A stretch of 64,000 nucleotides of DNA. Origin: Bacteroidota bacterium (lineage in GTDB: Bacteria; Bacteroidota; Bacteroidia; B-17B0; Aurantibacillaceae). Under the pieces are notes generated by a model that made no database searches, was not told the origin of the DNA, and saw only the letters and a list, made by a program, of their open reading frames with translations. Shown one piece after another: positions 23,291 through 49,694 of this stretch (within the stretch, counting starts at the first letter, position 1; every line of letters starts with the position of its first letter). The stretch lies in contig JAFDXR010000005.1 in the NCBI GenBank assembly GCA_018267825.1, forward strand, positions 62,001-126,000, given 5' to 3'. A program made the translations under genes and the position numbers.

Positions 23291-23315
23291 AATTTCGCTT
23301 GGATTTTGGGGAAAT

Positions 23316-23349
23316 AAAAAAGCCGGCTGTTACACCGGCCATACTTTTT
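23316..23349 (-). terminator. rho-independent terminator of the 23413-26907 gene
   Basis: Reading leftward, GCCGG (23335-23339 complement) pairs with CCGGC (23322-23326 complement) around an eight-base loop and is followed by a run of T. On the + strand the hairpin is flanked by A6 on the left and T6 on the right, so it may work in both directions. It lies about 70 bases past the stop of the T9SS cargo gene. Confidence 0.7.
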
Positions 23350-23412
23350 TGATTCGGGTTTTTGAGAGTTGCATTTCGCGTTCTTTTCGGGATTGCAACA
23401 CATTTTTTTACC

Positions 23413-26907: not shown

Positions 26908-26928
26908 AAGTAAAAATACGTATTTTTG
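26901..26928 (+). promoter_or_regulatory. candidate promoter and palindrome upstream of the deacetylase
   Basis: TATTTTTG (26921-26928) matches the Bacteroidota -7 box TAnnTTTG, with TTTG at 26901-26904 as a possible -33 box, although the 16-base spacer is short. The -7 box overlaps a 16-bp perfect palindrome, AAAAATACGTATTTTT, at 26912-26927, which could bind a regulator. The two genes here start within about 75 bases of each other in opposite directions. Confidence 0.4.
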
Positions 26929-26982
26929 GCTTACTAAACTTTTTAGTTCTTACACATCTTTATTAATTATCGTGCTTAAAAA

Positions 26983-27984: not shown

Positions 27985-27990
27985 TCTTTA

Positions 27991-28926: not shown

Positions 28927-29020
28927 AGGTAAAAAAGGACAAAAATAACAATAATTAATGGAGTAATCGTTTCCTGCCGGAAGTCCACACTGGCATTGTC
29001 TAAGTTTAAATAGAGCGAAA

Positions 29021-29782
29021 TCAATCTTTCTGCATCAAACCAAGAATCTCGCTTTTCTTTCTTCGTGGAACCTCTATCACCATACCATCTTTCATTGTAA
29101 TCAAACAATTTTGTCCTTTGGAATAAAACTGAACAAAATTGAGATTTATATAAGTGTTTTTACTCACCTTGACCATATATGGATGGTCAGCAAGTATAAA
29201 AGAGAAGTCTGCAAGCTCTTTGGATGAAAAGTATTTGTCATCAGAGGAAGTTTTAAATGTCGTGCATTTACTCTCCGATTTGATCCACACTATTTCTTCA
29301 ATATTCAGGAAAAATACATTGTTTCCATTGTGAATTGAAATTTTTGAGATGACCAATTGTTGAAGGTCGTACGATTTAATGATCGATTTCAAATCCTGCT
29401 GTTTGGGCGCACGTTCATGTAACCTGGTTTTAATTCTTTCAAGGGTCTTCGAGAATTTTTCGGAATTAATAGGTTTTACGACATAGTCAAGTGCATTAAA
29501 TTCAAATGCTTTTAGCGCATAGCTGTCAAAACCAGAAATAAAGACCACCTCAAAATCAATATTCTCAAACCTCTCCAATAAATCAAATCCATTGCCTGAA
29601 GGCATTTTTATATCTAAAAAAACCACATGGGGCTTTTTCTCAGTGATTACCTCATATGCTTCATCCAGGTCAGCAGCTTCTCCTATAATTTCAAAGCAGC
29701 TATCAAGTTGTGCAACTAATTTGATAATAAGTGCTCTATTGGATTGTTCATCGTCAATAACCACGGAACTAATCTTCATCAT
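29021..29782 (-). CDS. LytTR-family response regulator
   Basis: 253 aa. An N-terminal receiver domain (acidic VVIDDE, phospho-acceptor D57 in VFLDIKMPSG, and KPI near 105) is followed by a LytTR DNA-binding domain (IVWIKSESKCTTFKT, then HPYMVKVSKNTYINL). It is the cognate partner of the sensor kinase at 29769-32831: its start codon overlaps the kinase stop by 11-14 bases, depending on which of two adjacent ATGs is used. LytTR regulators bind imperfect direct repeats upstream of target genes; the surface proteins nearby are plausible targets but unproven. Confidence 0.9.
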   Translation of the reverse strand: MMKISSVVIDDEQSNRALIIKLVAQLDSCFEIIGEAADLDEAYEVITEKKPHVVFLDIKMPSGNGFDLLERFENIDFEVVFISGFDSYALKAFEFNALDYVVKPINSEKFSKTLERIKTRLHERAPKQQDLKSIIKSYDLQQLVISKISIHNGNNVFFLNIEEIVWIKSESKCTTFKTSSDDKYFSSKELADFSFILADHPYMVKVSKNTYINLNFVQFYSKGQNCLITMKDGMVIEVPRRKKSEILGLMQKD

Positions 29783-32700
29783 TTTCTTGAGGGTTTAAAT
29801 TATTTGGTAAAAAAATAGTGACCCGCGTTCCGGACGAATTATGCTCGGGATCTGCCAGGTCATCATAAACTACCCTGGAGTCCTCTCTGTTATATAAAAA
29901 ATTGATGCTGCTTAATCGCTGCTCAGTTATTTTTATACCATACGATTTTGTATTATTGGTTCTTAACTTCGCTTTTTCAGCACCTTGTCCTTTTCCGTTG
30001 TCCTGGATGGTTAATATCAGGTTTCTTTGATTTTTGATAACAATAATATGTAATTCACCTGCCCTCTGCCTTTGCACAGGTAAAAGACCATGCCAGATAG
30101 CATTTTCAATGATAGGGTTAAGGATAAGAGGGGGCAGGTAAGTTTTATTCAATGGAATGTCATTTTCAACATGAATCTTGAAAATGAACTTATTCTCAAA
30201 TCGCAGTTGTTCCAGCCTTAAATAGATTTTAATAAGGTCAAGTTCCTCCTCCAGCGTGATGAGTTGCATCGACGAGTAATCCAAAATGTACCTCACAAGT
30301 AAACCAAATTCGGCCAGGTAATAATTGGCCTTAGCGGTTTCATTATCTAAAATAAGATTCTGAATTGCCGAGAGGCAATTAGACATGAAGTGTGGATTTA
30401 TCTGGGCTTTCAGAGCTATCAGTTTATATTCCAGGATTAACTGCTCATTTTTGATTTTGAGCGCCTCCTTCTTTCGGCTTCGTTTCACGCTCCACCAGAT
30501 TATAGACGTGATAATAAATAGAGCACTGATGAATAAAAGAATTTGGAAGATGAAATTTTGCCAGAAAGCCGGCACGACTTTAAATGGTATTTCAATTTTC
30601 AGATCGCTATATTGCGCTTTAACCGGAAGCACAACAAGGGTGTAGCTACCAGGATATAAATGATTAAATTTTACCGTCGAATTCTGTAAATAGCCATGAT
30701 CGGGTCTCTCCCCTTTTAACACATATTTTATTAAGGGCTTCTCATCGCTTAATGATATGGCATCGAACTTGAATTCAACCGAATTATCCGTGCTCTTAAT
30801 TTCACTAAAATGAGTGGGCAATATTAAAATTGAATCGATCCGGATACTGGATAAATTCAAAAATAGCTTCTTTGGTCTGAGGATTTTAATATCATAATCA
30901 ATGATACCAAGCCCATTTTTGGAATTGATATAAACCTTGTCTTCAAACAGAAGTGCCTTCTGAACTTCTCCTTCAAAAATGCACTCCCAATTCTGTTGAA
31001 CTCCATTTTTATAAGAACTATCCGATATAAACAGCCCCTTATTGGTAGATAAGAGCGCGATATGTTTTTCCGTGAAACTTATATTGTTAACTATATCGCT
31101 GGGCAATCCATCTTTGACGGTAAAATGACTGATGGCTTTTCCGTTCATTATAAAAATGCCATTCCCTTCTGTAGTAAACCAAATGTTGTTCCGGTTGTCT
31201 TTAGCTATCGATGTGACAATAGAATTTAACGTAGGGGCTAAATACCCTTTGGCTATCAGAGTTTCGCTTTCCGTCACCAATATCCCGCCGATTTTTTTCC
31301 CGGCTTGATGAAACGATGAGGGATATTCGTAAACACCATTTTCTGTTCCAAGCAGCAATCTGTTCCCGTTTAGAAAGCCGCAAAGGATCTTGCAGCCAAA
31401 ATCTATTTGTTTCACAGCCTTATCATTTACATAGAACATAATACCCTTTCTCCAAACAGAGATAAGCGTATCTGCACTTTTTGATATTATACTTGTTGCC
31501 GTTGGTTCATTTATAGTGGACGTTTTAGAATGCCTGTTTTTATCCAGGTCGAATTTCTCATTGCTGAAGCGAAACGAAATCCGGTAATCACCGTTATGCT
31601 TTTCAATATCTATCGGTTCATTGTTGTCCGACTGCCTTATCTTTGTTATTTTGTTATTTTCAATAAAAAAGACAGCGCCGGTACTATTGCCGATAAACAG
31701 TTTCGTGCCTATTTTTTCCAATAAGCTGATGTTTGTACCAAGTAATTCAGGTTCTTCAAAGTGTTGGTGACTGATATTACGAAAATGGAAAAGACCAGCA
31801 TTTGACGTGGACAACCAGATACTATTCTGTTGATCAATCAATACATCGTTGACTGTTGTCCCTAAAAAGAAATGATTAATGATAGAATCATTCTCATCGA
31901 GTTCATACAGCCCGTCGTTATAACATCCCAGCCATAGGTGATTATTGGAATCCAAAGTATAGTTTAAGATCACTGAATTATGAATCTTCCTGCAAAGCAG
32001 TTCGTTCGATTTTTCAATATATCTGTACAGGTAATTATGAGATGTAAAATAGATAGCGTTCCTGCATAGTTTGATGTTGCGAACCGAAGACTTCAGGTAG
32101 TTTGAAGGAAGCTGGATTGACTTATAGCCATTCTTAATTGGCAATTCCAGATAGATGTGTCCGGTAGAACACATCTTCATAAATTTGTTTTCTTCTTTAT
32201 GCAAATAGACTGGAAGTAGGGTATTACCTGCTTTAAGCGCCCGGATCAGAATGCAATCTGATTTCATGTCTTCACAAAGTTCGATAGGCACGTAGCGACC
32301 ACCCTTTTTAATAAACTTATAGCTATGTCCTTTGGTCATGGCATAGATATTTAAAGAGTCATCCACATATAAGGCTACTATTTCACTCACTGAATTTCTC
32401 AGGGATTCAGAAATAGCTTCAATACCTTTTATTATAATGGCGCTGTCATTACGGATTTCATATATTCTTGCATTCGAATTAGCAACCCACTTGCGTCCGC
32501 TGGCATTCTCATATATGGAGTAAATGAAAGAATCTTTGAACGGCAGATTTTGCAGTACATGCTTAAATTCTGAACCGGTATATTTCAGTGTTCCATACTT
32601 CGAAAAGGCCCAGATGTAGCCCTCCTTGTCTTGATGTAAATTATAGATCTCGTCCGTTAACAGACCGTCTTTTGTCGTATAGTTTTTAAAATTGAAGGTT

Positions 32701-32831
32701 TGAGCGGAGATTGTCAGGTTAACCAGGAAAGTTGCACAAAATAGCAGATACAAAAATGTATATGGCTTCAATCGTTTTCTTTTTTCAGGCAATCTTATAC
32801 CAAACATAAGTAAATGAGCAAATTTCACCAT
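29769..32831 (-). CDS. hybrid-type sensor histidine kinase with beta-propeller sensor
   Basis: 1020 aa. There is an N-terminal signal peptide/anchor (YTFLYLLFCATFLVNLTISAQ), then seven-bladed-propeller Reg_prop-like repeats (for example WLSTSNAGLFHF, LWLGCYNDGLYEL), a Y_Y_Y-like domain (YVLKGERPDHGYLQNSTVKFNHLYPGSY), one transmembrane segment (ILLFISALFIITSIIWWSV) and a LytS/YehU-type histidine kinase core. Its phospho-acceptor is in LKAQINPHFMSN (histidine near residue 813), followed by a GHKL ATP-binding domain (NPIIENAIWHGL, IQDNGKGQG). This topology puts the sensor in the periplasm. It is co-transcribed with the LytTR regulator downstream. Confidence 0.9.
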   Translation of the reverse strand: MVKFAHLLMFGIRLPEKRKRLKPYTFLYLLFCATFLVNLTISAQTFNFKNYTTKDGLLTDEIYNLHQDKEGYIWAFSKYGTLKYTGSEFKHVLQNLPFKDSFIYSIYENASGRKWVANSNARIYEIRNDSAIIIKGIEAISESLRNSVSEIVALYVDDSLNIYAMTKGHSYKFIKKGGRYVPIELCEDMKSDCILIRALKAGNTLLPVYLHKEENKFMKMCSTGHIYLELPIKNGYKSIQLPSNYLKSSVRNIKLCRNAIYFTSHNYLYRYIEKSNELLCRKIHNSVILNYTLDSNNHLWLGCYNDGLYELDENDSIINHFFLGTTVNDVLIDQQNSIWLSTSNAGLFHFRNISHQHFEEPELLGTNISLLEKIGTKLFIGNSTGAVFFIENNKITKIRQSDNNEPIDIEKHNGDYRISFRFSNEKFDLDKNRHSKTSTINEPTATSIISKSADTLISVWRKGIMFYVNDKAVKQIDFGCKILCGFLNGNRLLLGTENGVYEYPSSFHQAGKKIGGILVTESETLIAKGYLAPTLNSIVTSIAKDNRNNIWFTTEGNGIFIMNGKAISHFTVKDGLPSDIVNNISFTEKHIALLSTNKGLFISDSSYKNGVQQNWECIFEGEVQKALLFEDKVYINSKNGLGIIDYDIKILRPKKLFLNLSSIRIDSILILPTHFSEIKSTDNSVEFKFDAISLSDEKPLIKYVLKGERPDHGYLQNSTVKFNHLYPGSYTLVVLPVKAQYSDLKIEIPFKVVPAFWQNFIFQILLFISALFIITSIIWWSVKRSRKKEALKIKNEQLILEYKLIALKAQINPHFMSNCLSAIQNLILDNETAKANYYLAEFGLLVRYILDYSSMQLITLEEELDLIKIYLRLEQLRFENKFIFKIHVENDIPLNKTYLPPLILNPIIENAIWHGLLPVQRQRAGELHIIVIKNQRNLILTIQDNGKGQGAEKAKLRTNNTKSYGIKITEQRLSSINFLYNREDSRVVYDDLADPEHNSSGTRVTIFLPNNLNPQENDED

Positions 32832-33115
32832 TTCTGACCTAAATAAAAAATCCGGCTTTTAAGTCAATGTAGTTTAAATGCAAACATGTTACTAAAGAAA
32901 GTTTGCTTTGCACCTGGATCAACTGATCCTAAATGTGTTGCAGGGTGTTGTTGCCAGGTTTTAATATGATCCTGTAAAAACCGGGTTTTGTTTTGTGCAA
33001 TAAATCCGCCCTGTGGTATAAATTTCAATGACCACCAAACTACTTTTGGCCGGAACTTTAACATAAGCGTTAACCGAAAAGCTTGAAATGAGTAGGTATA
33101 TCTAAAAACTATTGT

Positions 33116-36100
33116 ATGAAAAGACTATTTCTGATTTTATTCTTTGCGATCTTAATTTCCGGTGCCTGGGCTCAAATAAACATTGTCCCTAACCCAAGTT
33201 TTGATCAAACCATCACCTCATGCCCAACCGGGCTGGCTCAATGGGATAAATGTGACAACTGGAACAACGTCAATATGAATGTGGGTGCAGGATCCAACTG
33301 GGGAACACCAGACTATTACCAAACCTGTGGTACAGGTGGCACGGCTCCACCAGCAACAGCGTCCGGTACGTGTTCCCCCCATAGTGGTTCAGGCATGATG
33401 GGTCTCGTACTTTATAACGTAGGATTTCCGAGCTATCGGGAATATATTTCCACACAATTAAATTGCACGATGTTGCCAGGTTTTACCTATACTGTTTCTT
33501 TTTGGGTCACCAATGGCACCGGGCTTCTTAATCCCTATACTATAAAAAACATTGGAATACATTTTTCTTCAGCTCCATTAACCCAAACAGGTTGGGGTTG
33601 TATCACCTCAGTGACTCCGCAATGTGAAATACAGACAAATGTTGCTTCAACGTCGTGGGTACAATATACTTTTGCAGTTACTCCGACCGTTGCCTGTAAT
33701 TATTTAACTCTCGGAAGTTTCCGACCGGATTCACAAAATGGCGTTACTCCAACTTATACGAATAATAATATATGGGTTTTGCAGAGTAATTATGCTAACT
33801 ATTTTTTTGATGACATAAAAGTATTAAAACCTTTTATGACATTCTCATTGACACCTACCATAAGCCAGCCAACCTGCAATACAGTGGCATCTGCAACAGT
33901 AACACCTTCTATTCCTAATATAAGCTTAACCTATTCATGGACTCCTGGAAATTATACAACCACGAGCGTCTCCGGTCTGAGTAGTGGGTTTTATAATGTA
34001 TTTGCCTACAATACCAATACCTGCATTAATTCAGGGACGGTCGGTACTTCCTTTCAGATTAATCCACCTATAACAGCACCCATTTTAACGGTAACGTCAT
34101 CCCCAGCGTCTGTTTGTGCCGGGAAGTCTGTTACCTTACATGCATTGGGATCTTCTAATTACACATGGCAACCTTCCAGTGTCGTCGGTGATTCAATAGT
34201 CTTCCCTGTACTATTTACCCAAACAATCACGGTATATTCCACATTTACCAATGGCTGTGTCAGTACCGGAACGGTCAGTGTCACGGCTTTACCATTACCT
34301 ACTCTGAATATTTCATCTTCACCCACAGTTCTTTGCAGCGGGAACTCAGCAACAATTACGGCCAGCGGGGCCTCAACCTATACCTGGCTGCCGGGAGGTA
34401 ATAGTAATCCAATAATCGTGAGTCCAAACACGAACACGACATATTCCGTCACCGGAACGGGTACGAATGGTTGTAAAAGTAGTTCTACTCTGAACTTAAA
34501 TGTGATACCCACACCTACTTTAAATATTTCAAGCAGCAATACTCTTATCTGTCAGGGAAGTGCAGCAACGTTAACGGCCAGCGGAGCATCAAATTACACC
34601 TGGCTCCCGGGTAATTCCAACACCAATATTAATGTTGTCACTCCACAGGCGTCCGGGATCTTTACTGTTATGGGTACAAATACCAATGTTTGTGTTGGCA
34701 CAAATACAATATCCATCTCTGTATTACCAACGCCTACGGTTCTTATTTCTGCTCCTTCTCTTGTTATATGTCCAGGAATAAGTAATACGCTGATTGCCTC
34801 CGGTGCAACTAATTATACCTGGCAGCCTGTTAATTCCACGAACAGTGTCATTGTTACAACACCAACCACGACTACAACCTATACCGTGTATGCCACAGGT
34901 TCAAACACTTGTGTAACAGCCTCAACAATAACGCTTAATCCAGGCACGCTTATCAACCTGGGTGTTTCTAACTACACGTTTTGCAATAATGCCAGTACAG
35001 GTGTTTCGGTTACAGCTACCTCTACATTTACTGCTGGACCGATTACTTATTCATGGATGCCTGGAAGCATGGCAGGGCAAACAGTTTTTGTCAGTCCGCC
35101 TGCATCAAGTTCCTACACCTTGTATGCAAGTTCGCCCAATGGTTGTCCTAATTCTGCGACATTGTCTGTAAGCGTTGTAACAAATTGTTGTTCTCAATCT
35201 ACAACCGGATTAACGCCTTTGACAGCTATAACCGGCACATACACTAATAATTCATACTTCCTGGCAAATAGCTGTACGTTGACAAATACAAGTGCTTTCA
35301 ATAATTCAGAGGTTTTGATGATGCCAAATGTAAATATTACAATCCCGCAGGGCATGGTTCTTAACCTGGACCACACACACCTATATGCCTGTGGTATTAA
35401 AATGTGGCAGGGAATCGTAGTTCAGGATGGGGGACAGATCACAAGTTCATATAACCCTACCAGCGGCAGTAGTATGATAGAAGATGCCCTTACGGGTATA
35501 GAGGTAAATGGAATTACTTCTGCCGGCGCAAATCCTCCGATCCTTATAAGCAATTTGATCTTCAACAAAAACTATATCGGCATAACACTTAGCAACTCGC
35601 AGCCTACTATCACCTCCATTCCACTGGGAATTTCGGAATGTGTATTTTCAAGCAGGCAGATCAGCTTTGCTTCTCCTGGACCTTTTAATAATACCAGCTG
35701 GCCAAATTCATCGAATACTACCGGCGGTTTAAGATTTCCAGTATCACCCACAGCTACACAAGGCTTGTTTGCTCCATATTTATTAACAGGCTTCCAAACT
35801 AACCTGAAACTCCCTTATAGTAATCAACCGGGTCATATCGGTATAAAAATCCAAAATGTGGGTCAACAGTCGGGAGCACCTCCGACTAACGGAGTGGATA
35901 TTGGAGTTGTATACCCTAACGGGAATGGCATGTTTAATTTATTTGACGGACTTGGGGTCGGGATAGAAGTCGAAGACGCCAGTTTAACAACGATAAATAA
36001 TGTGTTTCAAAATGCGCAACGGTACCAGGTCGGTAGTAACTGGTTCGGAGGTTATGGAATTAAACAGAACATCTCAGGCTTGATGAACGCCCGGTTAAAT

Positions 36101-37489
36101 TTAAGTCCAACTTCGTTCTCTACTTCCTGTGGAAACTTGTTTTGGGACTGTATGACTTCCGTGAGAGCTGACAATGCCTATGATGTGAATATTGAATATG
36201 GTACTTACAGAAGCAGTCATAATTCCAACCCTTCAGCGATGATAGGCGATACTGCGATTATGCTTCAATCCAACAGGTTTAATTATAATATTCAAAACTG
36301 CCAGTTCAACAATATCGCTAACAGCATTATTACCAACGCGACCATTGGGACTTATGCTTTGCCTAGCGGTACAGTAAGTGGAACATACGCCAATAATATA
36401 GACATCGAAGAAAACTATTTTGGTCCGGAGGTTGCCAGTAATGTTACACAGCTCCCGGGAATGGAATACTCCGGCGATGCTATAAGCGTTCTCGGTAATG
36501 GTGGCTCTAACTGGCAGCTCATGGGGGCTTGCAAAATTGCCAGCAACAAGATAGATAGAAGTTTCAGAGGGATTCGGGCAAGCAATATGGTAAACTACCC
36601 GACAGTTATCGGAGGAAATAATATCCAAATCGTTACCGACTACATACAAACCACAGCTTCACAGTATGGAATATATGTTAATGGCAGCCAGGATTACTTA
36701 ACCATAGAGGATAATAATGTTGCAGGAGATGGTGGCAATCCTTTGAATACCCGGATTAGATTGATAAATTCAGTGAACAATACGACCCTGTCGTCTGTGT
36801 CTCCGATAGTAACCTGCAATAGAGTTTCAGACGCCTATATCGGCTTTGAGTTTGACGGTCCTCAGCCAGGTACAGTATGGACAAATAATCAAATGTTCCA
36901 AAAAATGTTCATAGGACTTTCTCTTGTTAATAACGGAATCATCGGCACACAGGGAAGTGCAGGTACATCTTGCGGGAACTATTGGTACGATGTGCTGCCC
37001 GATTTATGGAGTACAAATTGGAATACATATGTTGATAATTCCAGCTCTGCTGCTTCCGGTTCCTTTCTGTGGTGTATGAATATGCAAAATTCCTTCCCGG
37101 TAAATAATGGTGGGGCAAATCCTTTCAGTACAGTTTTAAACCCTAGTACATTGGGTTATTCTTCCAATATTCCTGGAGACTGCATTAGTTCATATCCTTC
37201 AGGACCAAGCCAGAGAATGATGCAACAAACAAAATCAAAAGACATCAGTAGTTCTGACATCAGGATTTTCCCGAACCCTTCAAATGATAAAGTCATCGTT
37301 TCTTCTTCGAAAGCGATTCAATATGTAAGGGTGACGGATTTATCCGGAAAAGTAGTTCTGGAAAAATCTGCCCTTAGCGGTGAGGAAAACAGTTTAGATG
37401 TTTCATCACTAAAACCTTCTGTGTATATTATTGAAGTTCATCTGAGTGAAAATAAAACAATCCGGGAAAAGCTTATCAAAGCTAATTAA
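33116..37489 (+). CDS. T9SS cargo protein with Ig-like repeats, beta-helix region and type A sorting domain
   Basis: 1457 aa. A signal peptide (LFLILFFAILISGAWAQ) is followed by an N-terminal domain (about 20-225) homologous to that of the protein at 23413 (GTPDYY...GTCSPHSG...LYNVG-P-YREY). One SprB-like repeat and about five Ig-like modules come next. A long region (about 700-1370) with many short beta-strand turns and right-handed beta-helix-like repeats (ISNLIFNKNYIGITLSN, IEDNNVAGDGG) leads to a type A T9SS sorting domain (FPNPSNDKVIV...YIIEVHLSENKTIREKLIKAN). The two surface proteins share their front end but use different sorting systems (A here, B there). Confidence 0.85.
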   Translation: MKRLFLILFFAILISGAWAQINIVPNPSFDQTITSCPTGLAQWDKCDNWNNVNMNVGAGSNWGTPDYYQTCGTGGTAPPATASGTCSPHSGSGMMGLVLYNVGFPSYREYISTQLNCTMLPGFTYTVSFWVTNGTGLLNPYTIKNIGIHFSSAPLTQTGWGCITSVTPQCEIQTNVASTSWVQYTFAVTPTVACNYLTLGSFRPDSQNGVTPTYTNNNIWVLQSNYANYFFDDIKVLKPFMTFSLTPTISQPTCNTVASATVTPSIPNISLTYSWTPGNYTTTSVSGLSSGFYNVFAYNTNTCINSGTVGTSFQINPPITAPILTVTSSPASVCAGKSVTLHALGSSNYTWQPSSVVGDSIVFPVLFTQTITVYSTFTNGCVSTGTVSVTALPLPTLNISSSPTVLCSGNSATITASGASTYTWLPGGNSNPIIVSPNTNTTYSVTGTGTNGCKSSSTLNLNVIPTPTLNISSSNTLICQGSAATLTASGASNYTWLPGNSNTNINVVTPQASGIFTVMGTNTNVCVGTNTISISVLPTPTVLISAPSLVICPGISNTLIASGATNYTWQPVNSTNSVIVTTPTTTTTYTVYATGSNTCVTASTITLNPGTLINLGVSNYTFCNNASTGVSVTATSTFTAGPITYSWMPGSMAGQTVFVSPPASSSYTLYASSPNGCPNSATLSVSVVTNCCSQSTTGLTPLTAITGTYTNNSYFLANSCTLTNTSAFNNSEVLMMPNVNITIPQGMVLNLDHTHLYACGIKMWQGIVVQDGGQITSSYNPTSGSSMIEDALTGIEVNGITSAGANPPILISNLIFNKNYIGITLSNSQPTITSIPLGISECVFSSRQISFASPGPFNNTSWPNSSNTTGGLRFPVSPTATQGLFAPYLLTGFQTNLKLPYSNQPGHIGIKIQNVGQQSGAPPTNGVDIGVVYPNGNGMFNLFDGLGVGIEVEDASLTTINNVFQNAQRYQVGSNWFGGYGIKQNISGLMNARLNLSPTSFSTSCGNLFWDCMTSVRADNAYDVNIEYGTYRSSHNSNPSAMIGDTAIMLQSNRFNYNIQNCQFNNIANSIITNATIGTYALPSGTVSGTYANNIDIEENYFGPEVASNVTQLPGMEYSGDAISVLGNGGSNWQLMGACKIASNKIDRSFRGIRASNMVNYPTVIGGNNIQIVTDYIQTTASQYGIYVNGSQDYLTIEDNNVAGDGGNPLNTRIRLINSVNNTTLSSVSPIVTCNRVSDAYIGFEFDGPQPGTVWTNNQMFQKMFIGLSLVNNGIIGTQGSAGTSCGNYWYDVLPDLWSTNWNTYVDNSSSAASGSFLWCMNMQNSFPVNNGGANPFSTVLNPSTLGYSSNIPGDCISSYPSGPSQRMMQQTKSKDISSSDIRIFPNPSNDKVIVSSSKAIQYVRVTDLSGKVVLEKSALSGEENSLDVSSLKPSVYIIEVHLSENKTIREKLIKAN

Positions 37490-37521
37490 TGAACCTTTAT
37501 AACATATAGTTTACCCAAATA

Positions 37522-37554
37522 ATGAAGACCCTTCTAGTTTAGAAGGGTCTTCAT
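37522..37554 (+). terminator. long perfect hairpin after the 33116 gene
   Basis: ATGAAGACCCTTCT (37522-37535) and its complement (37541-37554) form a 14-bp perfect stem with a five-base loop, 33 bases after the stop. No T run follows directly, so it may act as an RNA-stabilising or processing hairpin rather than a textbook terminator. Confidence 0.6.
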
Positions 37555-37659
37555 ATTCTCAGGGTTCTGATGTGTTTTTTAATCCGAATGGATAAATCGA
37601 TTGTTACAGTTTTATATTTCCCTCAACCAAATAATTTTTGTAAAATTGAATAGCGAGTT

Positions 37660-38067
37660 ATGGAACGAATAAAAGTAATTATTACGGATGATAACGTGCA
37701 ATACCGGAAGTTGTTTAAAGAACTTCTTAAACCGTTTGCCATTGATTTAATCGGAGAAGCATCAAATGGCCAGGATTTACTAACCTTACTGGAAACCTTA
37801 AGCCCTGACGTCATACTACTTGATATTGAAATGCCTGGAATGGATGGCATCGTTTCGTATAAGTTTATTAAGGAGAAATACCCGATGGCAAAAGTGGTTA
37901 TGGTAAGTTCAATAGATGCATACGAGCTGATCCAGGAATTAAAGGAAAGGGGAGTAAAAGGCTTTGTGCATAAACACATGTTGGATGATGAAATTTTATG
38001 GACAACCATAAAAACAGTAAAAGATGGTGGTGTTCTATATACAGAAATAAGCTCATCAAACAAGTGA
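37660..38067 (+). CDS. stand-alone response regulator receiver
   Basis: 135 aa, receiver domain only. It has an acidic pocket IITDDN at residues 7-12, phospho-acceptor D55 in VILLDIEMPGMDG, a serine at VMVSSID, and a lysine at KGFVHKHM. No output domain is attached. It starts 170 bases after the surface-protein gene and is followed 72 bases on by the alpha-CTD-like regulator, so the two could work together. The cognate kinase is unknown. Confidence 0.85.
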   Translation: MERIKVIITDDNVQYRKLFKELLKPFAIDLIGEASNGQDLLTLLETLSPDVILLDIEMPGMDGIVSYKFIKEKYPMAKVVMVSSIDAYELIQELKERGVKGFVHKHMLDDEILWTTIKTVKDGGVLYTEISSSNK

Positions 38068-38139
38068 GAAATTACTATCGGAAATTCAGTATTCAACAAA
38101 TGCAGGTTTTGAGCATCAAAATATATTAATTTTGATAGT

Positions 38140-38751
38140 ATGACGAACAAAAGAAAACACAAGGAGGATAAGAGGAATGTCAAGGAAAGTACCAACAGAG
38201 AATCGTTAAATAGCGCTGCACCGATTGGCTTCAAACGACTTGTAAAAACGGAGTCTGAAATTATAATGGATGCCCTTTTAAACGACAAGTCACTTGCTGA
38301 AATAAAAGAAAAAAGCAAGCTTACAGATTCGAGGATCAAGCAAATTTTTCAAAGGGCCATAGTCAGGTTAAATAGCTATTTCGATACCATAGAGGAAAGA
38401 ATCACTAATTATCTGGAGGTTGAAAAGAATTATGCAGGCATGGAACATCGTCCGGCAAAATATGAAAAGATTGAACAAGGAGCCAGGATTGCCGGAAAGA
38501 AATTTAATTCGCTCCCCTTTCAAACCCAAGCCCTTTTAAATACCAAAATAACAGATACTGAATTTTCCCGAAGGATTAAAAATTTCTGCCATTCCGGGCA
38601 TCCCTGGGGAAATAAAATAGAAACAGTGGCAGATCTCGTTCGATTAAACGTTAGCGCGATTAAACAATACCGGAACTGCGGCAGGAAAAGTATTCTTGAA
38701 ATTGAAGATTTCTTTCACCGACATCATCTATCCTGGGGGATGCTGGATTAG
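38140..38751 (+). CDS. regulator with sigma-region-4-like HTH and RNA polymerase alpha-CTD-like module
   Basis: 203 aa. After a basic N-terminus, residues about 48-85 (IIMDALLNDKSLAEIKEKSKLTDSRIKQIFQRAIVRL) resemble a sigma region 4/LuxR-type HTH. The C-terminal 50 residues (KIETVADLVRLN, RNCGRKSILEIEDFF, HHLSWGML) follow the RNA polymerase alpha C-terminal domain pattern (TVxDLVxL...RNxGRKSLxEI...LGLSLGM). That module binds UP elements or activators in RNA polymerase. A protein pairing the two could recruit or mimic polymerase; the role is inferred. A similar gene is at 49965. Confidence 0.7.
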   Translation: MTNKRKHKEDKRNVKESTNRESLNSAAPIGFKRLVKTESEIIMDALLNDKSLAEIKEKSKLTDSRIKQIFQRAIVRLNSYFDTIEERITNYLEVEKNYAGMEHRPAKYEKIEQGARIAGKKFNSLPFQTQALLNTKITDTEFSRRIKNFCHSGHPWGNKIETVADLVRLNVSAIKQYRNCGRKSILEIEDFFHRHHLSWGMLD

Positions 38752-38792
38752 TCAGGTTTTCTATACGCATAAATTGGCATAGTCTTCAGAAC

Positions 38793-40996: not shown

Positions 40997-42202
40997 TTAA
41001 TTGATGTAAGTGATTTGGCTATAAGTCTCATGGTCGAGCACGGCTGCATGAAAACGATTTAATAAAGCCGGATCATTGAATTTTCCAATCGTGTTTTCAC
41101 ACTGGCGGAACAGTTGCAGTTTTGGTTTACGCTTGCAGGCTTCTTTTTTTTCGTTGGTGATATAACTTCGGATAAGCCGGTTCACGGTAAGTTCGCGCTG
41201 TACCTCGGCTTTGTGCTTCATATCATCCTGGTACCATTTTTTTGTTCCTACAAAACCTTTCGGATTAGTAACATCGAAGTAGAGATAGGGCAAGGTGACA
41301 AAGCGCCTGGTGGGGTCCTTACGAATGTATTTTTCAACCAATGAAATGCGGGCGACGTATTGCTGGTGTGCTTTTGAGAAATGCTCCGTCGGGAGTGGTT
41401 CATAAAGTTTATGGATGAGCTGTTTAGCAATACTGATCTGTCTTTCGGTGAGATCTGTGTTCTTGTAGAGAAGATTCCGCGCCATGAGCCACAAGAGGCT
41501 CACGTGCATGTTTAGGGAATTGCCGCGAGCGGTGTCCGTGACGGCTTCGCCGCCAGTCGACCGGCCCGCCCGCGGAACAATTTCCCCTGCTTCTTCCAAA
41601 TTTTTTTTAAAATCTTTTTTTTGACCAATCGCCTCAACAATTTCCCCTGTGTCTCCTGTCCCGTTGCCGTTATCAACCGGTATTATTATATTATTTTTTT
41701 TACTAGTGTTACCAGTATATGTATGAGGACAATTTGACGTTTGTAAAATTAATTCGCCCGCCAATTGCTCGTTTTGGCGGGCTTTCTCCAGGGTCTCTTC
41801 CAATTGCTTTTTGGCCTTATTAACACATAACCGCTCCTTTACTAACAGGATTTTGGGGGTTATCAACAGCTCATAATTGGCGTTGGAACCATGAAATATC
41901 TTTTTTGTGATGATACCGGCTGCCTGAAGTTTTTGAATATGACGTTGAATGCTGCGTGGACTGCATTTCACAAAACCGGCCAGTTGTTGATTATTGGTTT
42001 GTAGGGTAGGCAGATTATCCGGGTTGATCTCCTGGAAGGAATTTACTTTGAGCAGGGAGATCCCGTAGATGCGGATAATTTCTTTGGCGGTAAGCACCGC
42101 CCCGGTTCTGAGTCTCTGCGTGTTCTTTTCTGCTTTCTCGTTGTACTGGTCTATAAAACTGTCCAGGGCTTTAAATGCTGTGGGGTAGTGAATAACTATC
42201 AT
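40997..42202 (-). CDS. winged-helix DNA-binding protein, replication-initiator or regulator-like
   Basis: 401 aa from the ATG at 42202; the frame stays open to 42346, but that extension overlaps the small gene at 42219. Residues about 55-120 (LQTNNQQLAGFVKCSPRSIQRHIQKLQAAGIITKKIF) form a winged HTH of the kind used in phage and plasmid replication proteins. The middle (around 170-240) is low-complexity, and residues 245-400 are helical with basic patches (KPKLQLFRQCEN). It fits proteins encoded near the control regions of Bacteroidota elements. Whether it initiates replication is unproven. Confidence 0.6.
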   Translation of the reverse strand: MIVIHYPTAFKALDSFIDQYNEKAEKNTQRLRTGAVLTAKEIIRIYGISLLKVNSFQEINPDNLPTLQTNNQQLAGFVKCSPRSIQRHIQKLQAAGIITKKIFHGSNANYELLITPKILLVKERLCVNKAKKQLEETLEKARQNEQLAGELILQTSNCPHTYTGNTSKKNNIIIPVDNGNGTGDTGEIVEAIGQKKDFKKNLEEAGEIVPRAGRSTGGEAVTDTARGNSLNMHVSLLWLMARNLLYKNTDLTERQISIAKQLIHKLYEPLPTEHFSKAHQQYVARISLVEKYIRKDPTRRFVTLPYLYFDVTNPKGFVGTKKWYQDDMKHKAEVQRELTVNRLIRSYITNEKKEACKRKPKLQLFRQCENTIGKFNDPALLNRFHAAVLDHETYSQITYIN

Positions 42203-43370: not shown

Positions 43371-43646
43371 TTAATATTTGGGAATATTCCTTTTTAAAAA
43401 GTCCAGGATGCTTTTGTGCGAATACATAATAGTTTTTTTACCAAGCTTGGAGAACTTGATGCAGTCGTTATCGCGGAGCTCCTGCATTTTGGATTTACTT
43501 TTTACACCAAGTAGGGCTTTCGCCTTTTCAGTGGGGATCCAGTCGTCTTCTTCTTTGTTTGCTTCCTTGAGAGCTTTCTGAAACATCTGCATCAGCTCGG
43601 TTTGCATTTTCCAGTAGGTTTCTTTTTCAAAGACTATAATTTCCAT
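43371..43646 (-). CDS. small HTH (MerR/excisionase-like) protein
   Basis: 91 aa. The C-terminal part (WIPTEKAKALLGVKSKSKMQELRDND, CIKFSKLGKKTIMYSHKSIL) matches the short winged-helix HTH used by excisionase- and MerR-like proteins in Bacteroidota mobile elements. An N-terminal helix precedes it. No integrase is nearby in this window, so an excisionase role is only suggested by family resemblance. Confidence 0.6.
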   Translation of the reverse strand: MEIIVFEKETYWKMQTELMQMFQKALKEANKEEDDWIPTEKAKALLGVKSKSKMQELRDNDCIKFSKLGKKTIMYSHKSILDFLKRNIPKY

Positions 43647-43674: not shown

Positions 43675-43917
43675 TTAAGCTGGTTTGTTTAAAATCTGAG
43701 TCCGCAATTCCTTGATTTTTTGCGTGCGGTTGCGGTCGTGTTCAATAATTTTAAGGGCAGCCAGGTAGATCTGTTCCTGGTAGCGTGTGCGGATTCTCTC
43801 CCCGTTTAAAAAACGGTAAATGGTTGGGCGGGAAATCTTGGTCTTCCGGGCGATTTCCCCAACAGCGCTTGGCGGCAATTCGCCCGCGATCATATCAACA
43901 TCTTCTTGTGTAAACAT
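43675..43917 (-). CDS. HTH DNA-binding regulator (first gene of leftward operon)
   Basis: 80 aa. VGEIARKTKISRPTIYRFLNGERIRT is a compact HTH (IARKTKISRPTIYRFLNGE) of the Xre/repressor or resolvase-like type. A C-terminal helix is rich in charged residues (KELRTQIL). Its start lies about 100 bases from the candidate leftward -7 box at 44019-44026. It probably controls, or is controlled by, the switch region and is the lead gene of the 38793-43917 leftward block. Confidence 0.65.
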   Translation of the reverse strand: MFTQEDVDMIAGELPPSAVGEIARKTKISRPTIYRFLNGERIRTRYQEQIYLAALKIIEHDRNRTQKIKELRTQILNKPA

Positions 43918-43941: not shown

Positions 43942-44051
43942 TTTCTTTTTTTATAACTTTATTGTATATTTGCCAACAATATGTTGGTGTTTTTACAATA
44001 ATGTTGGTAATTTGCCAACAAATGTATTGGTAAAATACCAACATTTACAAA
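43942..44051. promoter_or_regulatory. operator region with TTGG-N7-CCAA sites and face-to-face promoters
   Basis: Three 15-bp inverted sites lie here: CCAACAATATGTTGG (43973-43987, the reverse arrangement), TTGGTAATTTGCCAA (44004-44018) and TTGGTAAAATACCAA (44027-44041). A rightward -7 box TATATTTG (43965-43972) has TTTC at 43942-43945 with a 19-base spacer. A leftward -7 box TACATTTG (complement of 44019-44026) has TTTG at 44048-44051 with a 21-base spacer. Each operator lies in or next to a promoter, so binding should block transcription. The two promoters point towards each other. Confidence 0.6.
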
Positions 44052-44091
44052 TTTTATTTAGAAAAAATAATTGTTTTAATCCCAAAGTGCT

Positions 44092-44700
44092 ATGAAACAA
44101 GAGGTTGCAAATAATAAAAAATCAGAGGTTTCAATCAAACGCATCGTTTCCGAACAGTTTTTAAACTCGGTTACACAGGCTATTGAAACAGGTCTTGTCA
44201 AAAATGAGCGTGAGTTTGCTTTGCTCATTGAGAAGGACCAGGCGGAGTTTTCAAGGATGAAGAATACCGAGAGGGGCCGCTATGTTGATATTGAAATGAT
44301 CTACAAGGCAGTGAACCTGCTTGGTTTCGATGCCAACCATATCTTTCTGGAAGGTGGGGGCAAGAAAGAGAATCTCTTACGCGAAGGCGTGCATATCAAT
44401 GGCGGAAATGTGAGTGGAAATAACAATGTGGTGCTGACCGGCCAGGCTGTATCGAATCATGGAGATGTATATCTTAATGTTCAAAAACTGGTGCAAAGCT
44501 TGCCTGCCAAGGATAAAAATGCAATACTGAAAAAGATAAGCGACCTGGAAAGCAAGAGCACTGGCTTAAATACTCAGATTGAGGATTTAAAAAAAACTAT
44601 TGACCGTTACGAGAGAGAGATGGAGAAAGACAAGAAGATCATTGAGACCCAGGAGAAGCTTATTAAAATGATGGAAGGCGGCAAGGGGGCTAAAAAATAG
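44092..44700 (+). CDS. repressor-like protein with C-terminal coiled coil
   Basis: 202 aa. The N-terminal part (EREFALLIEKDQAEFSRMKNTERGRYVDIEMIYKAVNLLGFDANHIFL) has the helix-turn-helix and following helix layout of Xre/CI-type repressors. Then comes a glycine/asparagine loop (INGGNVSGNNNVV) and a long coiled coil (about 140-195) probably used for oligomerisation. It is the first rightward gene after the operator region and is followed by two more TTGG-N7-CCAA sites, suggesting autoregulation and control of the next gene. Confidence 0.65.
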   Translation: MKQEVANNKKSEVSIKRIVSEQFLNSVTQAIETGLVKNEREFALLIEKDQAEFSRMKNTERGRYVDIEMIYKAVNLLGFDANHIFLEGGGKKENLLREGVHINGGNVSGNNNVVLTGQAVSNHGDVYLNVQKLVQSLPAKDKNAILKKISDLESKSTGLNTQIEDLKKTIDRYEREMEKDKKIIETQEKLIKMMEGGKGAKK

Positions 44701-44735
44701 TTGGCTTTTCTCCAACATTGTTGGCTTTTTACCAA
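44701..44735. promoter_or_regulatory. two further TTGG-N7-CCAA sites before the 44746 gene
   Basis: TTGGCTTTTCTCCAA (44701-44715) starts right after the stop of the 44092 gene, and TTGGCTTTTTACCAA (44721-44735) lies 5 bases on. They carry the same 4-7-4 architecture as the sites at 43973-44041 and end 10 bases before the next ATG. Confidence 0.65.
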
Positions 44736-44745
44736 TATCAGATTC

Positions 44746-45042
44746 ATGGCAAAAAAAGGAAAGAAAAAAGCAAACCAATTCACCGGCGATTACAAAGAGA
44801 AGAATTTAGTGTCCCATAAATTTATCGAAGCCTTTAATAAACTCAAACAACGTGGCGTGTTTGATACCTACGAAGATTTTTCACTGGAGTATGGTTACGG
44901 TGCAGATGTTATGGCAAAGATCGCTGGTGGTGTGCAAGACGTCCCTCTCATTCTGCTTTGGGCTATGGTAGATAAATATGGAGTGAATGCCGATTTTTTC
45001 TTCCTGGAAAGCTCTCCTTTAAAAATAAACAGGGCAAAATAA
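44746..45042 (+). CDS. second repressor-like HTH protein
   Basis: 98 aa from the ATG at 44746; the frame is open from 44701, but that part overlaps the operators. A basic start (AKKGKKKANQ) precedes an HTH-like region (VFDTYEDFSLEYGYGADVMAKIAGGVQDVPLILLWAMVDKYGVNADFFFL) whose layout follows that of the 44092 protein. A degenerate copy of its 3' end lies at 45341-45460. It converges with the 45047 gene. Confidence 0.6.
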   Translation: MAKKGKKKANQFTGDYKEKNLVSHKFIEAFNKLKQRGVFDTYEDFSLEYGYGADVMAKIAGGVQDVPLILLWAMVDKYGVNADFFFLESSPLKINRAK

Positions 45043-45046: not shown

Positions 45047-45259
45047 TTACTTTTCTTTAGTATCAACACCTTTAAACGCAATCTCTTTCAGTGTTTGCAT
45101 TTCAGCATCAGTAAGACTATCAATGGTCATTTGACCCTGATGACCGAAGAGTTCCATATCAAAGCATCGCTTCTTTGGCTCATATCCCAGAAGCTTAAAT
45201 TCGACCACCTGCCCGGTGATTCGTTTTATTGAATAGCATTTCCCTACTTGCGGTTCCAT
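45047..45259 (-). CDS. small hypothetical protein, 70 aa
   Basis: Starts at the ATG at 45259 (MEPQVGK); a longer frame opens at 45277. Beta-rich front (KCYSIKRITGQVVEFKLLGYE) and a helical end (TDAEMQTLKEIAFK). No family was recognised. Its convergent position with 44746 and acceptable composition support a real gene, but weakly. Confidence 0.4.
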   Translation of the reverse strand: MEPQVGKCYSIKRITGQVVEFKLLGYEPKKRCFDMELFGHQGQMTIDSLTDAEMQTLKEIAFKGVDTKEK

Positions 45260-45340
45260 CGTCAAAATTTTAATCAAAGGTAGAAAGACCAGGGCTAAAG
45301 CTTTGCCACGATTTGTAGCAACTAGGAAAATCGCTCTGAG

Positions 45341-45460
45341 ATGAATAGTTTACAAGGTATTCACCTTATTCTACTTTGGGTTACGGTAGATAAGTTTGCT
45401 GTTGACGCCATCTTTTTATCTCATGAAAACTGCACTTGGAAAACAAACAGAGTAAAATAA
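45341..45460 (+). pseudogene. degenerate copy of the 3' end of the 44746 gene
   Basis: Translation from the ATG at 45341 gives 39 residues with HLILLWVTVDKFAVDAIFL and a terminal KTNRVK. These align with PLILLWAMVDKYGVNADFFFL and KINRAK at the end of the 44746 protein. The DNA also shares AAAATAATCTTTTA just at and after the two stops. It looks like a duplicated and truncated repressor fragment. Confidence 0.65.
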
Positions 45461-45478
45461 TCTTTTATTTTTTCCTAC

Positions 45479-48400
45479 TTAGATTTTAAGATTTAATGGG
45501 TAAGGCAGGATATTTCCTTCTACAAGTTCTTTGGCTGGATTTTTTATAATTCTTATGTCTGGCTCTTCATTACCAGCAGAAAATACTCTGTATATATAAT
45601 AATTGTCACCTTTCTCAAACATCAATTTCCATTCTTCAATAGAAATTGGAAACACTGTTTTTGTACTTGAAGGCGTGCCTTTTACTTCGATAAATATTTC
45701 CATATTATTTTCACCAAAAACAATAAAGTCAAACGGTTTGTAACTTTCCCCATTTTCGTTAGACCAGTTAACCTTGTTATATTTATTCTTCAAATATAAA
45801 AACACATATTTCTCAGCCCATCGTCCTATATCAACTTTTGATTGCTCATCAATATCTTCTGTAGATGGGGCTAAATACTCTTCGCTGTTTGTTGAAGGAG
45901 AAGACTGATAGAATGACACCTTTGAAAAACTTGCCTTATTTGGACTTACTTTTGGAACAAATGTCTGTCTAGGGATATCGGATATTAAATTAGGTTCAAA
46001 TGTAGGCGCCATTTCTAAACCAGAACCATTTGTGGATTCTGCTTCCACCGTATTAAGAGGCTTTTTAGGTTGTGTAATGCCTACCTTTGGTCTGAATTTA
46101 ATTTTGGATTTTTTATACTCCGGAGATTCTAGAATTTCCTTTATGTCAATATTTATACTGTTAAACCACTTTTGAGTGGCATTCTCATCAATTTCAAAAA
46201 GTAATCTAAATTCTTCGTTCAAACCTGTTATACCAAAGAGTTTGTACAGTTGAGGGATAATGGAGAATTTAGTAATGGGGTTACCCCGATCACCGATATA
46301 GCAAAACTCCGCACCCGATTGATAGCTTGGTCTATCTGGTCCCAAAATTTCTTCATCGAGGTGAGTAAACGCTAAATTGATTTTGTCAGCATTAAGAATC
46401 TTAAGAGAGGAAAGAATTTCAAACATTCTACTAAATTCTTCTTTCAAAGAGGTTGCCTCTCTGATAGCAGCTAACTTTGCATAGTATGGCAAAATGTCAA
46501 GCAGATGGTTTTTTAATTGATAGTCTTCCCGAGCATTTTGATACCTTGGAACGAAATTGTCAATGATTTTAACGGAAAACAATTCGAACAGTTCTCTGTA
46601 ATTGCCGTTGTTGAAATCATGACCAGAGGGGAGATGAATTAGCTTTAGAGAGTCGGTTCCAATAAAGCCGGGAATGTTAATGTACATGAGTTCTGAAGGA
46701 TATTCAAAGGTTTGACTGTCAGAAAAAATACGATGGCTAGACGCCCATTCACGAATTATATCCTTTTTGTCCTCTGCATATTCAGGTAAAAGTGATGCGA
46801 GTTTTTCGTACAAATTTCCTATTCTCTTTATTTCTGCTCTTTTAGGTTCTTCACCATCTAAGACCTTGATGGATATATTTTCTAAAATGGAAAGGTAATC
46901 TTCTAGTCCTAACGTTTCTTTTAGGCCGAGAAATTTTTTCCAATCATGGGACAGAGGATTTTCATATGTGAACACAGGCAGGTGTTTTCCTGCCAGTTGT
47001 TTAATCTCTTTTGTTGATGCAAAGGCCTCCTGTGGCTTAACAAGAATTTCAGATGTAACAGGAATACAAGTCTCATTTTGAATAAACCATTTGAAATAGC
47101 TCTCGATTATAACGGAGTGCCTGTTTTCACCACGACCTTCACCATAAACAAAAACTGCGTGAGTGGACAATTCAGCCAGACTCTCTTTATTTAAAAGGAT
47201 ATTTTCCCAAAATTGTTCGGCAAATAGATAATTCTTTGCTACTGATTGTAAAAAGGACGGAAGTTTAATATTTCTTATAATATTGTGGTCACCAAAACCA
47301 AAGCCACCGGAGCTTCTTGCTCTATTTTTGGCTTCATTTACCCATTCGTCAGAGGTGATTCTACGAACTTCAGGGATTGTGAGCCAATCAACGGTTTCAA
47401 TCTCTATTCGATCCTTGACATTAATCGCTTTAAAAAAGGAAGCAAGCCTGAGCTCTCCAAATCCAGTCGTTAAGTATTCTTCAGAAATGTAGTTTAGTCC
47501 AGGGATATTGGATTCAAGTTTTGTATATGGATTATACTTGTCTGACAAATAACAATCATGTGCTTTAGTAAAAATGGCTTCGTCCGTGCGCTTTGTTTTA
47601 ATTCTTAGGGCACGTAACTGACTCAGCATTTCCTCGGTAAGTTCATTGTTTTGAAATAATCGTAGCAGATAGGTTACTATTTGAATATGATTGGCATCTG
47701 TTACAAAACTTGGGTTTTCCAAATTCGGAATAATAACATTCGTTACATACGCTAATTCAGAAGGTTCCTTGACTCCCAAAGCCCTCAACCAGTCAAACAC
47801 ATCTTTGTTCTTTTCAATCGATTCGTAAACCTCTTTGTGTATTAATGGTATCTTACCCAGTTCTGTTGTAGCCGCTAATGTTGGGAAACATATCCCCGTT
47901 GAAGGATTCGCAAGTATGCCACTTTCATTGAATATGAAAGGCATTGTTTTTAGTTTAAAAAACCACATACCATCAGAATCACCATCAGCCCGCATTTTGA
48001 AGTAGCGAATTAACCCAAAGTTCTGTTCTACTTTATGATTCTTTGAAAAAAAACTAGATCCAAAAAATTTATCCAGCTCTGCTAGCTCAAATGTAATGAC
48101 ACCAAAAGAGTGCAGTTTTTCCAGTTTTTCAAAGTGTTTATGAATAAATCCATTCTCCTCGACGTTAAGATTCCGCTCAGCATTAATATAACGCGAAATA
48201 AATTTTCGTTCAATAAAACTTTGCTCTGATAATCCGGTTTGATCCCAAACTGACTTTTCTAAAGTCCTTACTTTACCTTCCAAATCAACAATGAACCTGC
48301 ACTTTGAGATAAGTGAACGAACTTCATTTTCAAATATTCTCCTTAAACCGCCAATAGAAGAAGAACTTGTCGATGGTAATAAATTTAAAGTCTGGAAACG

Positions 48401-49483
48401 ATAATTAGTAGATGCTAGTTCTTCTAACCAGCGTAATAATAGTTTACCTGCCATTTCGAATAACCATATATTCCAGATTTGATCCTCATGCAAAGCTTCT
48501 CTGGGAGTATTGGTTAAGAAGCTGGCATTGACTAAAAATGGAAAATCATATTCCCTAACTTTTGTTGGCAGATAAGTGAAGATAAGGCTTTCATTTCTTG
48601 GAAGGGAAACTATTTTATCCCCGATGAGTTTTGCCGCGAATGACAGATCCGTGAATTCAGAATTTTTAAGCTTGGGAGGTGCGTCATCATCAGATTTCAA
48701 AGCAGTCTTCGTTTTGTCGGAAATTTGAATATGCTCAAATGTTTTCAATAACCAGGTACTGACTAGTTTATTGTCCAATCTTAGTTCTGTTTTAATATAT
48801 GCGTTATCTGTTTCTGTAACAACCTTTGTGATTTCGGACTGGAGAATATTATTTCTCTTAACTGTGATTTTTGAAACTCGTCTGAGAAAAAGAAGTATTT
48901 CTCCATTGCTTAATAGCTCTTTCAATTCCTTTTCCAATTGTTTTGAATCAGGTAGTTCAATGATCGTGGCTACAGAATAAGTCAGAGTTTCCAGAGATCG
49001 TTGCGCAGATACTGGGAGGTCTTTGATATCAGTCCAGATTGGAATAACTTGCCAGGGTAAAATTAAAGAAGAATGAAATCCCTTGTCAAAGCGAAATTGG
49101 TAACCATCAGAGAAGATTGTAACTCGTTTTGATTTTCCGAAAACAGATTTGAAACCTACTCCCTTATATCCTGTTTTAGTTGAATCTGATGTTTTAGTAC
49201 TTGAACCGGCGTGGGTTATAGATGCAATATCCCCCTGATCAAATTTTTTTCCGTTGTGTGAAACAATCAGACAGTCATCCAGGAAATCAAAAAGAACTTC
49301 ATTTGAACCATTAAGCGAGGAATCATCAGCATTTTGAATAAACTCAAAAACAAATCTTTTGTTTTCTGAGTATATATCAGTCGACAGCTTGCTTAGCATG
49401 TGCAAAGCCATCTCTGCTTGATCAGGGTCATTGTAAATAGAACGCCTTTTAAATAAATCTTCAATAAATTGTTTCTTGTCCAT
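45479..49483 (-). CDS. sacsin/NOV-like GHKL ATPase with DUF3883-like C-terminus (defence candidate)
   Basis: 1334 aa from the ATG at 49483 (MDKKQFIEDLF); an ATG at 49582 is in frame but gives an unlikely start. Residues 40-115 carry the sacsin-type Bergerat fold: FEFIQNADD (N box, N51), DDCLIVSHNGKKF, then GYKGVGFKSVF (G2 box, from G105). The C-terminal 117 residues (from 1218) contain FDFIVF (D1252), IEVKG (E1266, K1268) and EEWKLMFE. This is the DUF3883/PD-(D/E)XK arrangement seen in NO VEIN-like bacterial proteins. The middle is helical and long. Such GHKL-plus-nuclease proteins are frequent in defence islands; antiviral activity is inferred. Confidence 0.75.
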   Translation of the reverse strand: MDKKQFIEDLFKRRSIYNDPDQAEMALHMLSKLSTDIYSENKRFVFEFIQNADDSSLNGSNEVLFDFLDDCLIVSHNGKKFDQGDIASITHAGSSTKTSDSTKTGYKGVGFKSVFGKSKRVTIFSDGYQFRFDKGFHSSLILPWQVIPIWTDIKDLPVSAQRSLETLTYSVATIIELPDSKQLEKELKELLSNGEILLFLRRVSKITVKRNNILQSEITKVVTETDNAYIKTELRLDNKLVSTWLLKTFEHIQISDKTKTALKSDDDAPPKLKNSEFTDLSFAAKLIGDKIVSLPRNESLIFTYLPTKVREYDFPFLVNASFLTNTPREALHEDQIWNIWLFEMAGKLLLRWLEELASTNYRFQTLNLLPSTSSSSIGGLRRIFENEVRSLISKCRFIVDLEGKVRTLEKSVWDQTGLSEQSFIERKFISRYINAERNLNVEENGFIHKHFEKLEKLHSFGVITFELAELDKFFGSSFFSKNHKVEQNFGLIRYFKMRADGDSDGMWFFKLKTMPFIFNESGILANPSTGICFPTLAATTELGKIPLIHKEVYESIEKNKDVFDWLRALGVKEPSELAYVTNVIIPNLENPSFVTDANHIQIVTYLLRLFQNNELTEEMLSQLRALRIKTKRTDEAIFTKAHDCYLSDKYNPYTKLESNIPGLNYISEEYLTTGFGELRLASFFKAINVKDRIEIETVDWLTIPEVRRITSDEWVNEAKNRARSSGGFGFGDHNIIRNIKLPSFLQSVAKNYLFAEQFWENILLNKESLAELSTHAVFVYGEGRGENRHSVIIESYFKWFIQNETCIPVTSEILVKPQEAFASTKEIKQLAGKHLPVFTYENPLSHDWKKFLGLKETLGLEDYLSILENISIKVLDGEEPKRAEIKRIGNLYEKLASLLPEYAEDKKDIIREWASSHRIFSDSQTFEYPSELMYINIPGFIGTDSLKLIHLPSGHDFNNGNYRELFELFSVKIIDNFVPRYQNAREDYQLKNHLLDILPYYAKLAAIREATSLKEEFSRMFEILSSLKILNADKINLAFTHLDEEILGPDRPSYQSGAEFCYIGDRGNPITKFSIIPQLYKLFGITGLNEEFRLLFEIDENATQKWFNSINIDIKEILESPEYKKSKIKFRPKVGITQPKKPLNTVEAESTNGSGLEMAPTFEPNLISDIPRQTFVPKVSPNKASFSKVSFYQSSPSTNSEEYLAPSTEDIDEQSKVDIGRWAEKYVFLYLKNKYNKVNWSNENGESYKPFDFIVFGENNMEIFIEVKGTPSSTKTVFPISIEEWKLMFEKGDNYYIYRVFSAGNEEPDIRIIKNPAKELVEGNILPYPLNLKI

Positions 49484-49694
49484 TGAATTGGGATTTATAC
49501 GAAAATAGCTTTTTATAAGGACAAATGAGCTAGGATGGGTCTTTTTGAGATTAAGTAGCACAAAAAGCCAATTCGAAGGCATTCTAAATTACAACAACAA
49601 TAAAAAGTTGCAGATTTTTCTAGTAGCCATTTTTTTTGATTTATGTCTTTGGGCCAACAGCTTAGGATTCAGACATTTTAAACCTTCAAATAGG

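Follow-up and report, generated by a model that had tools for sequence, protein, structure and literature searches.

A candidate lysogeny switch with facing promoters and clustered palindromic sites in a prophage-like element of Bacteroidota

Introduction

In phage P2 the promoters Pe and Pc (with C and Cox) face each other, and the C repressor is not expected to undergo SOS cleavage. Phage lambda, with CI and Cro, has several palindromic operators, spaced by about two helical turns, that are common to both of its promoters, which stand back-to-back, and its repressor carries an S24 domain. In coliphage 186 the face-to-face promoters pR and pL are paired with CI and Apl, and repressor sites lie both at the promoters and at the distant flanking positions FL and FR (PMC7708051, PMC7498355); the promoters of P2/186-type face-to-face switches are separated by 40-60 bp (PMC7498355). 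For Bacteroidota, the sigma-A promoter consensus is TAnnTTTG at -7 with TTTG near -33 (PMC9723704, PMC7366714).

Here we analyze a locus within a 64-kb stretch of a Bacteroidota contig (hereafter the window), which we read, with a probability of roughly two in three, as the maintenance/early-gene (lysogeny) switch of a prophage-like integrated element that would work in a 186/P2-like manner. The locus resembles that of 186 in its face-to-face promoters between divergent regulator genes, in a small helix-turn-helix (HTH) protein encoded by the first early gene, and in distant extra sites for the putative repressor, but it differs in having sigma-A type Bacteroidota promoters that appear to be spaced closer, a 202-aa candidate repressor with a predicted coiled coil, and distant sites on one side only. 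With P2 it shares face-to-face promoters and a repressor not expected to be SOS-cleavable, whereas here one family of sites overlaps both promoters, an arrangement also seen in the lambda operators.

Results

Palindromic sites cluster at divergent candidate regulator genes

A sequence-only reading of this DNA had described four TTGG-N7-CCAA sites of identical 4-7-4 architecture, and these proved to be the only exact copies in the window, where 1.76 would be expected; all four fall within 43942-44735, a 794-bp region with an expectation of 0.011 (Table 1). The motif itself is not rare in the whole 4.82-Mb genome, which holds 66 palindromic matches, fewer than the 99 for a control pattern, so that the signal is the clustering rather than the bare motif. 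Pairs of exact sites no more than 23 bp apart occur twice at the locus (23 and 20 bp) against 0.02 expected genome-wide. A 19-bp weight matrix ranked O1-O6, the same six sites on which it was trained, as the top six in 104 kb, and its next matches in these 104 kb sit inside open reading frames away from the switch, revealing no further operator in the element. Chance accumulation of motifs in AT-rich DNA, to which the commonness of the bare motif lends some weight, is accordingly an extremely improbable account given the clustering, the matrix ranking and the promoter boxes that align in relatives.

A fifth, reversed site had also been proposed. Its letters are present, but rather than a separate site it is better read as the junction, made of the inner halves, of two imperfect forward sites (O1 and O2), whose one-mismatch copies at 43962-43976 (TTGTATATTTGCCAA) and 43984-43998 (TTGGTGTTTTTACAA) continue the register of the exact sites. 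O1 to O4 then follow one another in steps of 22, 20 and 23 bp, or about two helical turns, in an array between the divergent genes, and O5 and O6, with a step of 20 bp, lie between the stop codon of the 202-aa gene and the ATG of the 98-aa gene, directly ahead of the second repressor-like gene as originally described. One more one-mismatch site, TTGTTTTAATCCCAA at 44071-44085, is found 44 bp (two steps) from O4 and directly before the 202-aa start.

Table 1. Positions of putative regulatory sites and candidate regulator genes in the window.
Feature	Position	Strand	Remarks
Rightward promoter PR, -7 box TATATTTG	43965-43972	+	TAnnTTTG aligned in 9 loci
Leftward promoter PL	44019-44051	-	TTTG (44048-44051), 21-nt spacer, TACATTTG (44019-44026)
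Reverse CCAA-N7-TTGG	43973-43987		junction of O1 and O2 (see text)
Putative operator O1, TATTGTATATTTGCCAACA	43960-43978		one mismatch to motif; overlaps rightward -7 box; in matrix
Putative operator O2, TGTTGGTGTTTTTACAATA	43982-44000		one mismatch; inside 20-21 bp stretch unique to window
Putative operator O3, TGTTGGTAATTTGCCAACA	44002-44020		exact motif (core 44004-44018), top matrix score; over leftward start region and -7 box
Putative operator O4, TATTGGTAAAATACCAACA	44025-44043		exact motif (core 44027-44041); within PL spacer; palindrome at same place in locus L052
Putative distal operator O5, AGTTGGCTTTTCTCCAACA	44699-44717		exact motif (core 44701-44715)
Putative distal operator O6, TGTTGGCTTTTTACCAATA	44719-44737		exact motif (core 44721-44735)
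202-aa CI-like repressor candidate	44092-44700	+	predicted HTH domain at N-terminus and coiled coil at C-terminus, joined by flexible linker; no S24 domain
98-aa protein	44746-45042	+	paralogue of 202-aa N-terminal domain, without coiled coil; hhalign E 1.5e-7, probability 94%
80-aa HTH protein	43675-43917	-	first gene of leftward operon; HTH_7 E 9e-5, just under gathering score; Cro/Apl/Cox-like candidate
91-aa HTH_17 (excisionase-like) protein	43371-43646	-	second leftward gene; E 0.002, under gathering score; most loci
Replication-initiator-like protein	40997-42193	-	further along leftward operon; PHROG 'replication initiation O-like' E 4e-4

Facing promoter boxes are kept across homologous loci

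The leftward and rightward boxes seen initially do face each other, the candidate operators overlap both promoters, and conservation of the boxes across ten homologous loci supports their being promoters. The PL pattern TTTG-N21-TAnnTTTG is kept in nine of the ten (the window, L027-L033 and G006), with the tenth, L034, keeping the PL -7 box without the -33 box; variation across loci is confined to the free 'nn' bases (TACATTTG, TACTTTTG, TAATTTTG), and in L052, an additional locus, the boxes recur with a spacer of 20 nt. For PR, which has no clear -33 box, the TAnnTTTG box aligns in nine of the ten loci, the exception being G006, where one lies further left. These boxes agree with the sigma-A consensus of Bacteroidota. 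With the boxes placed at -12 to -5, the predicted starts of PL (near 44014) and PR (near 43977) are separated by ~37 bp in the window and by ~17 bp in relatives, and the outer box-to-box distance is 63 bp in the window versus 42 bp in close relatives. The window's extra 20-21 bp stretch, which holds O2, is a tandem copy of its neighbour (75% identity) and preserves helical phase. A sigma-70 promoter scan was set aside as not meaningful for Bacteroidota.

The repeats could instead act as RNA, with the 202-aa mRNA carrying a hairpin or attenuator in its leader and another hairpin preceding the 98-aa gene, and the rightward leader (43979-44091, + strand) does fold at -29 kcal/mol with z-scores of -3.7 to -4.4. 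Most relatives, however, lack this fold (six of nine have z above -1.3), and the very stable nested leader hairpin is confined to the window, L033 and L034; 44690-44745 has a z-score of -1.2, no Rfam match was obtained, and such hairpins are a by-product of nested palindromic operators. An RNA role is thus very doubtful, and the hairpin was rejected as a conserved element because its fold is not conserved.

Letters of the putative operators turn over while the promoter skeleton stays

Relatives of the 202-aa protein belong to the same family of uncultured Bacteroidota, and a search with the 80-aa protein finds more. Leftward, the loci have in common the 80-aa HTH gene, mostly the HTH_17 gene, genes for 112-aa, 81-aa and 102-aa proteins, and replication-initiator-like and glycosyltransferase-like genes, and rightward the 202-aa gene, usually followed by the 98-aa gene. 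Operator letters drift between lineages and the promoter skeleton stays: at the corresponding places relatives carry mostly TTGT-N7-RCAA at O1, TTTCC-N5-GGAAA in L033 and L034, and TGGTCAAATTGACCA in L052. Repetition of sites within a locus was equalled by 0 of 100 shuffles in the window, 1 in L031, 2 in L033 and 4 in L034, with letters that differ per lineage, whereas five of the nine loci gave no significant repetition in this shuffle test. Because repetition beats shuffles only in these four, the assignment of the sites as operators, made on sequence grounds, has strong support in the window and moderate support across the family. O5 and O6 are missing from the compared relatives.

A candidate repressor shares its slot with S24 repressors

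The 202-aa protein appears to combine an HTH domain with a coiled coil. Its AlphaFold model places helices at 10-84 and 139-198 with low confidence (mean pLDDT 58), the N-terminal domain has five predicted helices and a Z of 7.2 to lambda repressor, a value common for helical domains, and the HTH misses Pfam thresholds. A Pfam search found no Peptidase_S24 domain in the protein, so RecA-triggered self-cleavage is not expected as its route of release. In two more distant loci, L055 and L056, an S24 (CI/LexA-type) repressor occupies the 202-aa position opposite an 80-aa homologue (Peptidase_S24 E 5e-11 and 3e-11). The N-termini of these repressors are HTH-like and match the 98-aa protein (E 2e-4 and 6e-4), and the L056 repressor matches the 202-aa protein by BLASTP (E 7e-4). 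These S24 repressors in the same slot are the strongest argument that a CI role would fall to the 202-aa protein. In P2/186-type switches the small HTH protein encoded by the first early gene is at the same time the excisionase. On that side of the locus, the 80-aa protein, with its candidate HTH, has 41-68% identity in relatives and is syntenic in further loci, and the replication-initiator-like protein has ~60% identity in relatives. Beyond the 98-aa gene, a degraded partial copy of its end (reading LILLWVTVDKF) is found at 45346-45461, separated from the intact gene by a small leftward open reading frame at 45047-45277.

The main ligand of TTGG-N7-CCAA might instead be the 98-aa or the 80-aa protein, with O5 and O6 then autoregulating the 98-aa gene. 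Both proteins are eligible, the 98-aa protein as an HTH paralogue and the 80-aa protein through its own HTH, and O5 and O6 immediately precede the 98-aa gene. Speaking against the 80-aa protein, G006 lacks its gene yet keeps PL with an adjacent TTGT-N7-ACAA site, a pattern that points to the 202-aa or the 98-aa protein as the binder; speaking against the 98-aa protein, L031 has repeated sites, yet no 98-aa homologue was found downstream there; and O5 and O6 were seen in the window only. We regard this alternative as rather unlikely. Sequence changes were dropped as a means of telling whether the 202-aa or the 80-aa protein is the ligand, since the changes of both go together.

The surrounding element is likely prophage-like

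On the same contig, upstream of the window, lie genes for a tyrosine integrase, an M23 peptidase, a GH108 lysozyme, a tail-fibre-like protein and numerous small proteins that seem to have membrane segments, and the window itself encodes a Zot/HerA-like ATPase, a large helicase-like protein and a methyltransferase-like protein. G049 has the same element gene set, and G036 and G006 have parts only. The element is likely prophage-like, although the integrase may or may not be part of it. No relatives by protein were found in phage and viral collections, and comparison of the left flank with the right end for att repeats gave one 14-mer and nothing longer.

Several further features were observed. 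A virus-like cluster (window 7252-22403; L043:5272-19202) contains lysis enzymes, small membrane-like proteins, the Zot/HerA-like ATPase and a 283-aa protein with 86% identity that could be a capsid protein and has no relatives in the phage and viral collections; as its structure model has a pLDDT of 41, we make no capsid claim. Secreted Ig-like proteins and response regulators at 22404-38792 lie between methyltransferase-like and glycosyltransferase-like genes and are probably cargo, because these two flanking genes are nearly adjacent in G006. Beside the switch, 45479-49582 (- strand) holds a TmtA-type (Tmn) anti-phage defence gene (PADLOC 1210 bits) with a sacsin-like ATPase domain. A similar TPR gene is found at the element's left end in G000 (C29:46102-46524), whereas L030 has it on the right side of the switch, an arrangement that would fit a circular permutation of the integrated element.

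Discussion

To summarize how such a lysogeny switch could operate, PL would drive the 80-aa HTH regulator, the excisionase-like HTH protein and the replication initiator, and PR would drive the 202-aa repressor and its 98-aa paralogue, with the facing -7 boxes presumably too close for both polymerases at once. The 202-aa protein, probably multimeric via its coiled coil, would bind 19-bp palindromes spaced about two helical turns apart, on one DNA face. Occupancy of O3 and O4 would shut PL, whereas O1 sits on PR, such that the repressor would limit its own synthesis, and the 80-aa protein would shut PR once the early operon is on, like Apl/Cox. O5 and O6, ~700 bp off, may anchor a DNA loop.

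A simpler picture is a divergent control region that regulates itself and lacks two stable states, in which the element is silent and the promoters just tune the repressor level. The sequence holds no proof of bistability and no induction route is visible, yet opposed promoters that overlap and have a regulator on either side form the usual layout of a two-state P2-like switch (PMC7498355), and we judge the simpler picture rather unlikely. The repressor switch and the face-to-face promoters proposed in the sequence-only reading are supported by conservation over the ten loci and by the S24 repressors in two more distant ones, with P2 as a functional analogy. Between the promoters of the ten loci, the best triplets of Apl/Cox-type direct repeats at 10-11 bp were no better than shuffles; on this ground, and with the likeness taken as one of function, we do not file the locus as a member of the 186/P2 family.

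More broadly, we tentatively offer, as a possibility we hold with less than even confidence, that the locus represents a class of switches belonging to integrated viruses of Bacteroidota whose lineage is undescribed. This class would combine promoters opposed as in P2 with operators shared as in lambda, and it would be run by a coiled-coil repressor that is not cleavable and trades places with S24 repressors at one and the same locus. Its immunity specificity would shift through turnover of the operators and also, in the window, through a phase-keeping 20-21 bp operator duplication that separates the promoters. The locus itself looks like an on/off switch for holding the element in dormancy, a device of a kind already known in a lineage that is new.

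To our knowledge, the lysogeny switches of Bacteroidota elements have hardly been studied. The analysis marks the likely control region of an element family without relatives in the phage and viral collections searched, and the locus offers a compact case that is open to testing and comes with ten loci for comparison. The presence of S24 and coiled-coil repressors in one slot may provide a way to ask how induction changes without a self-cleavage domain.
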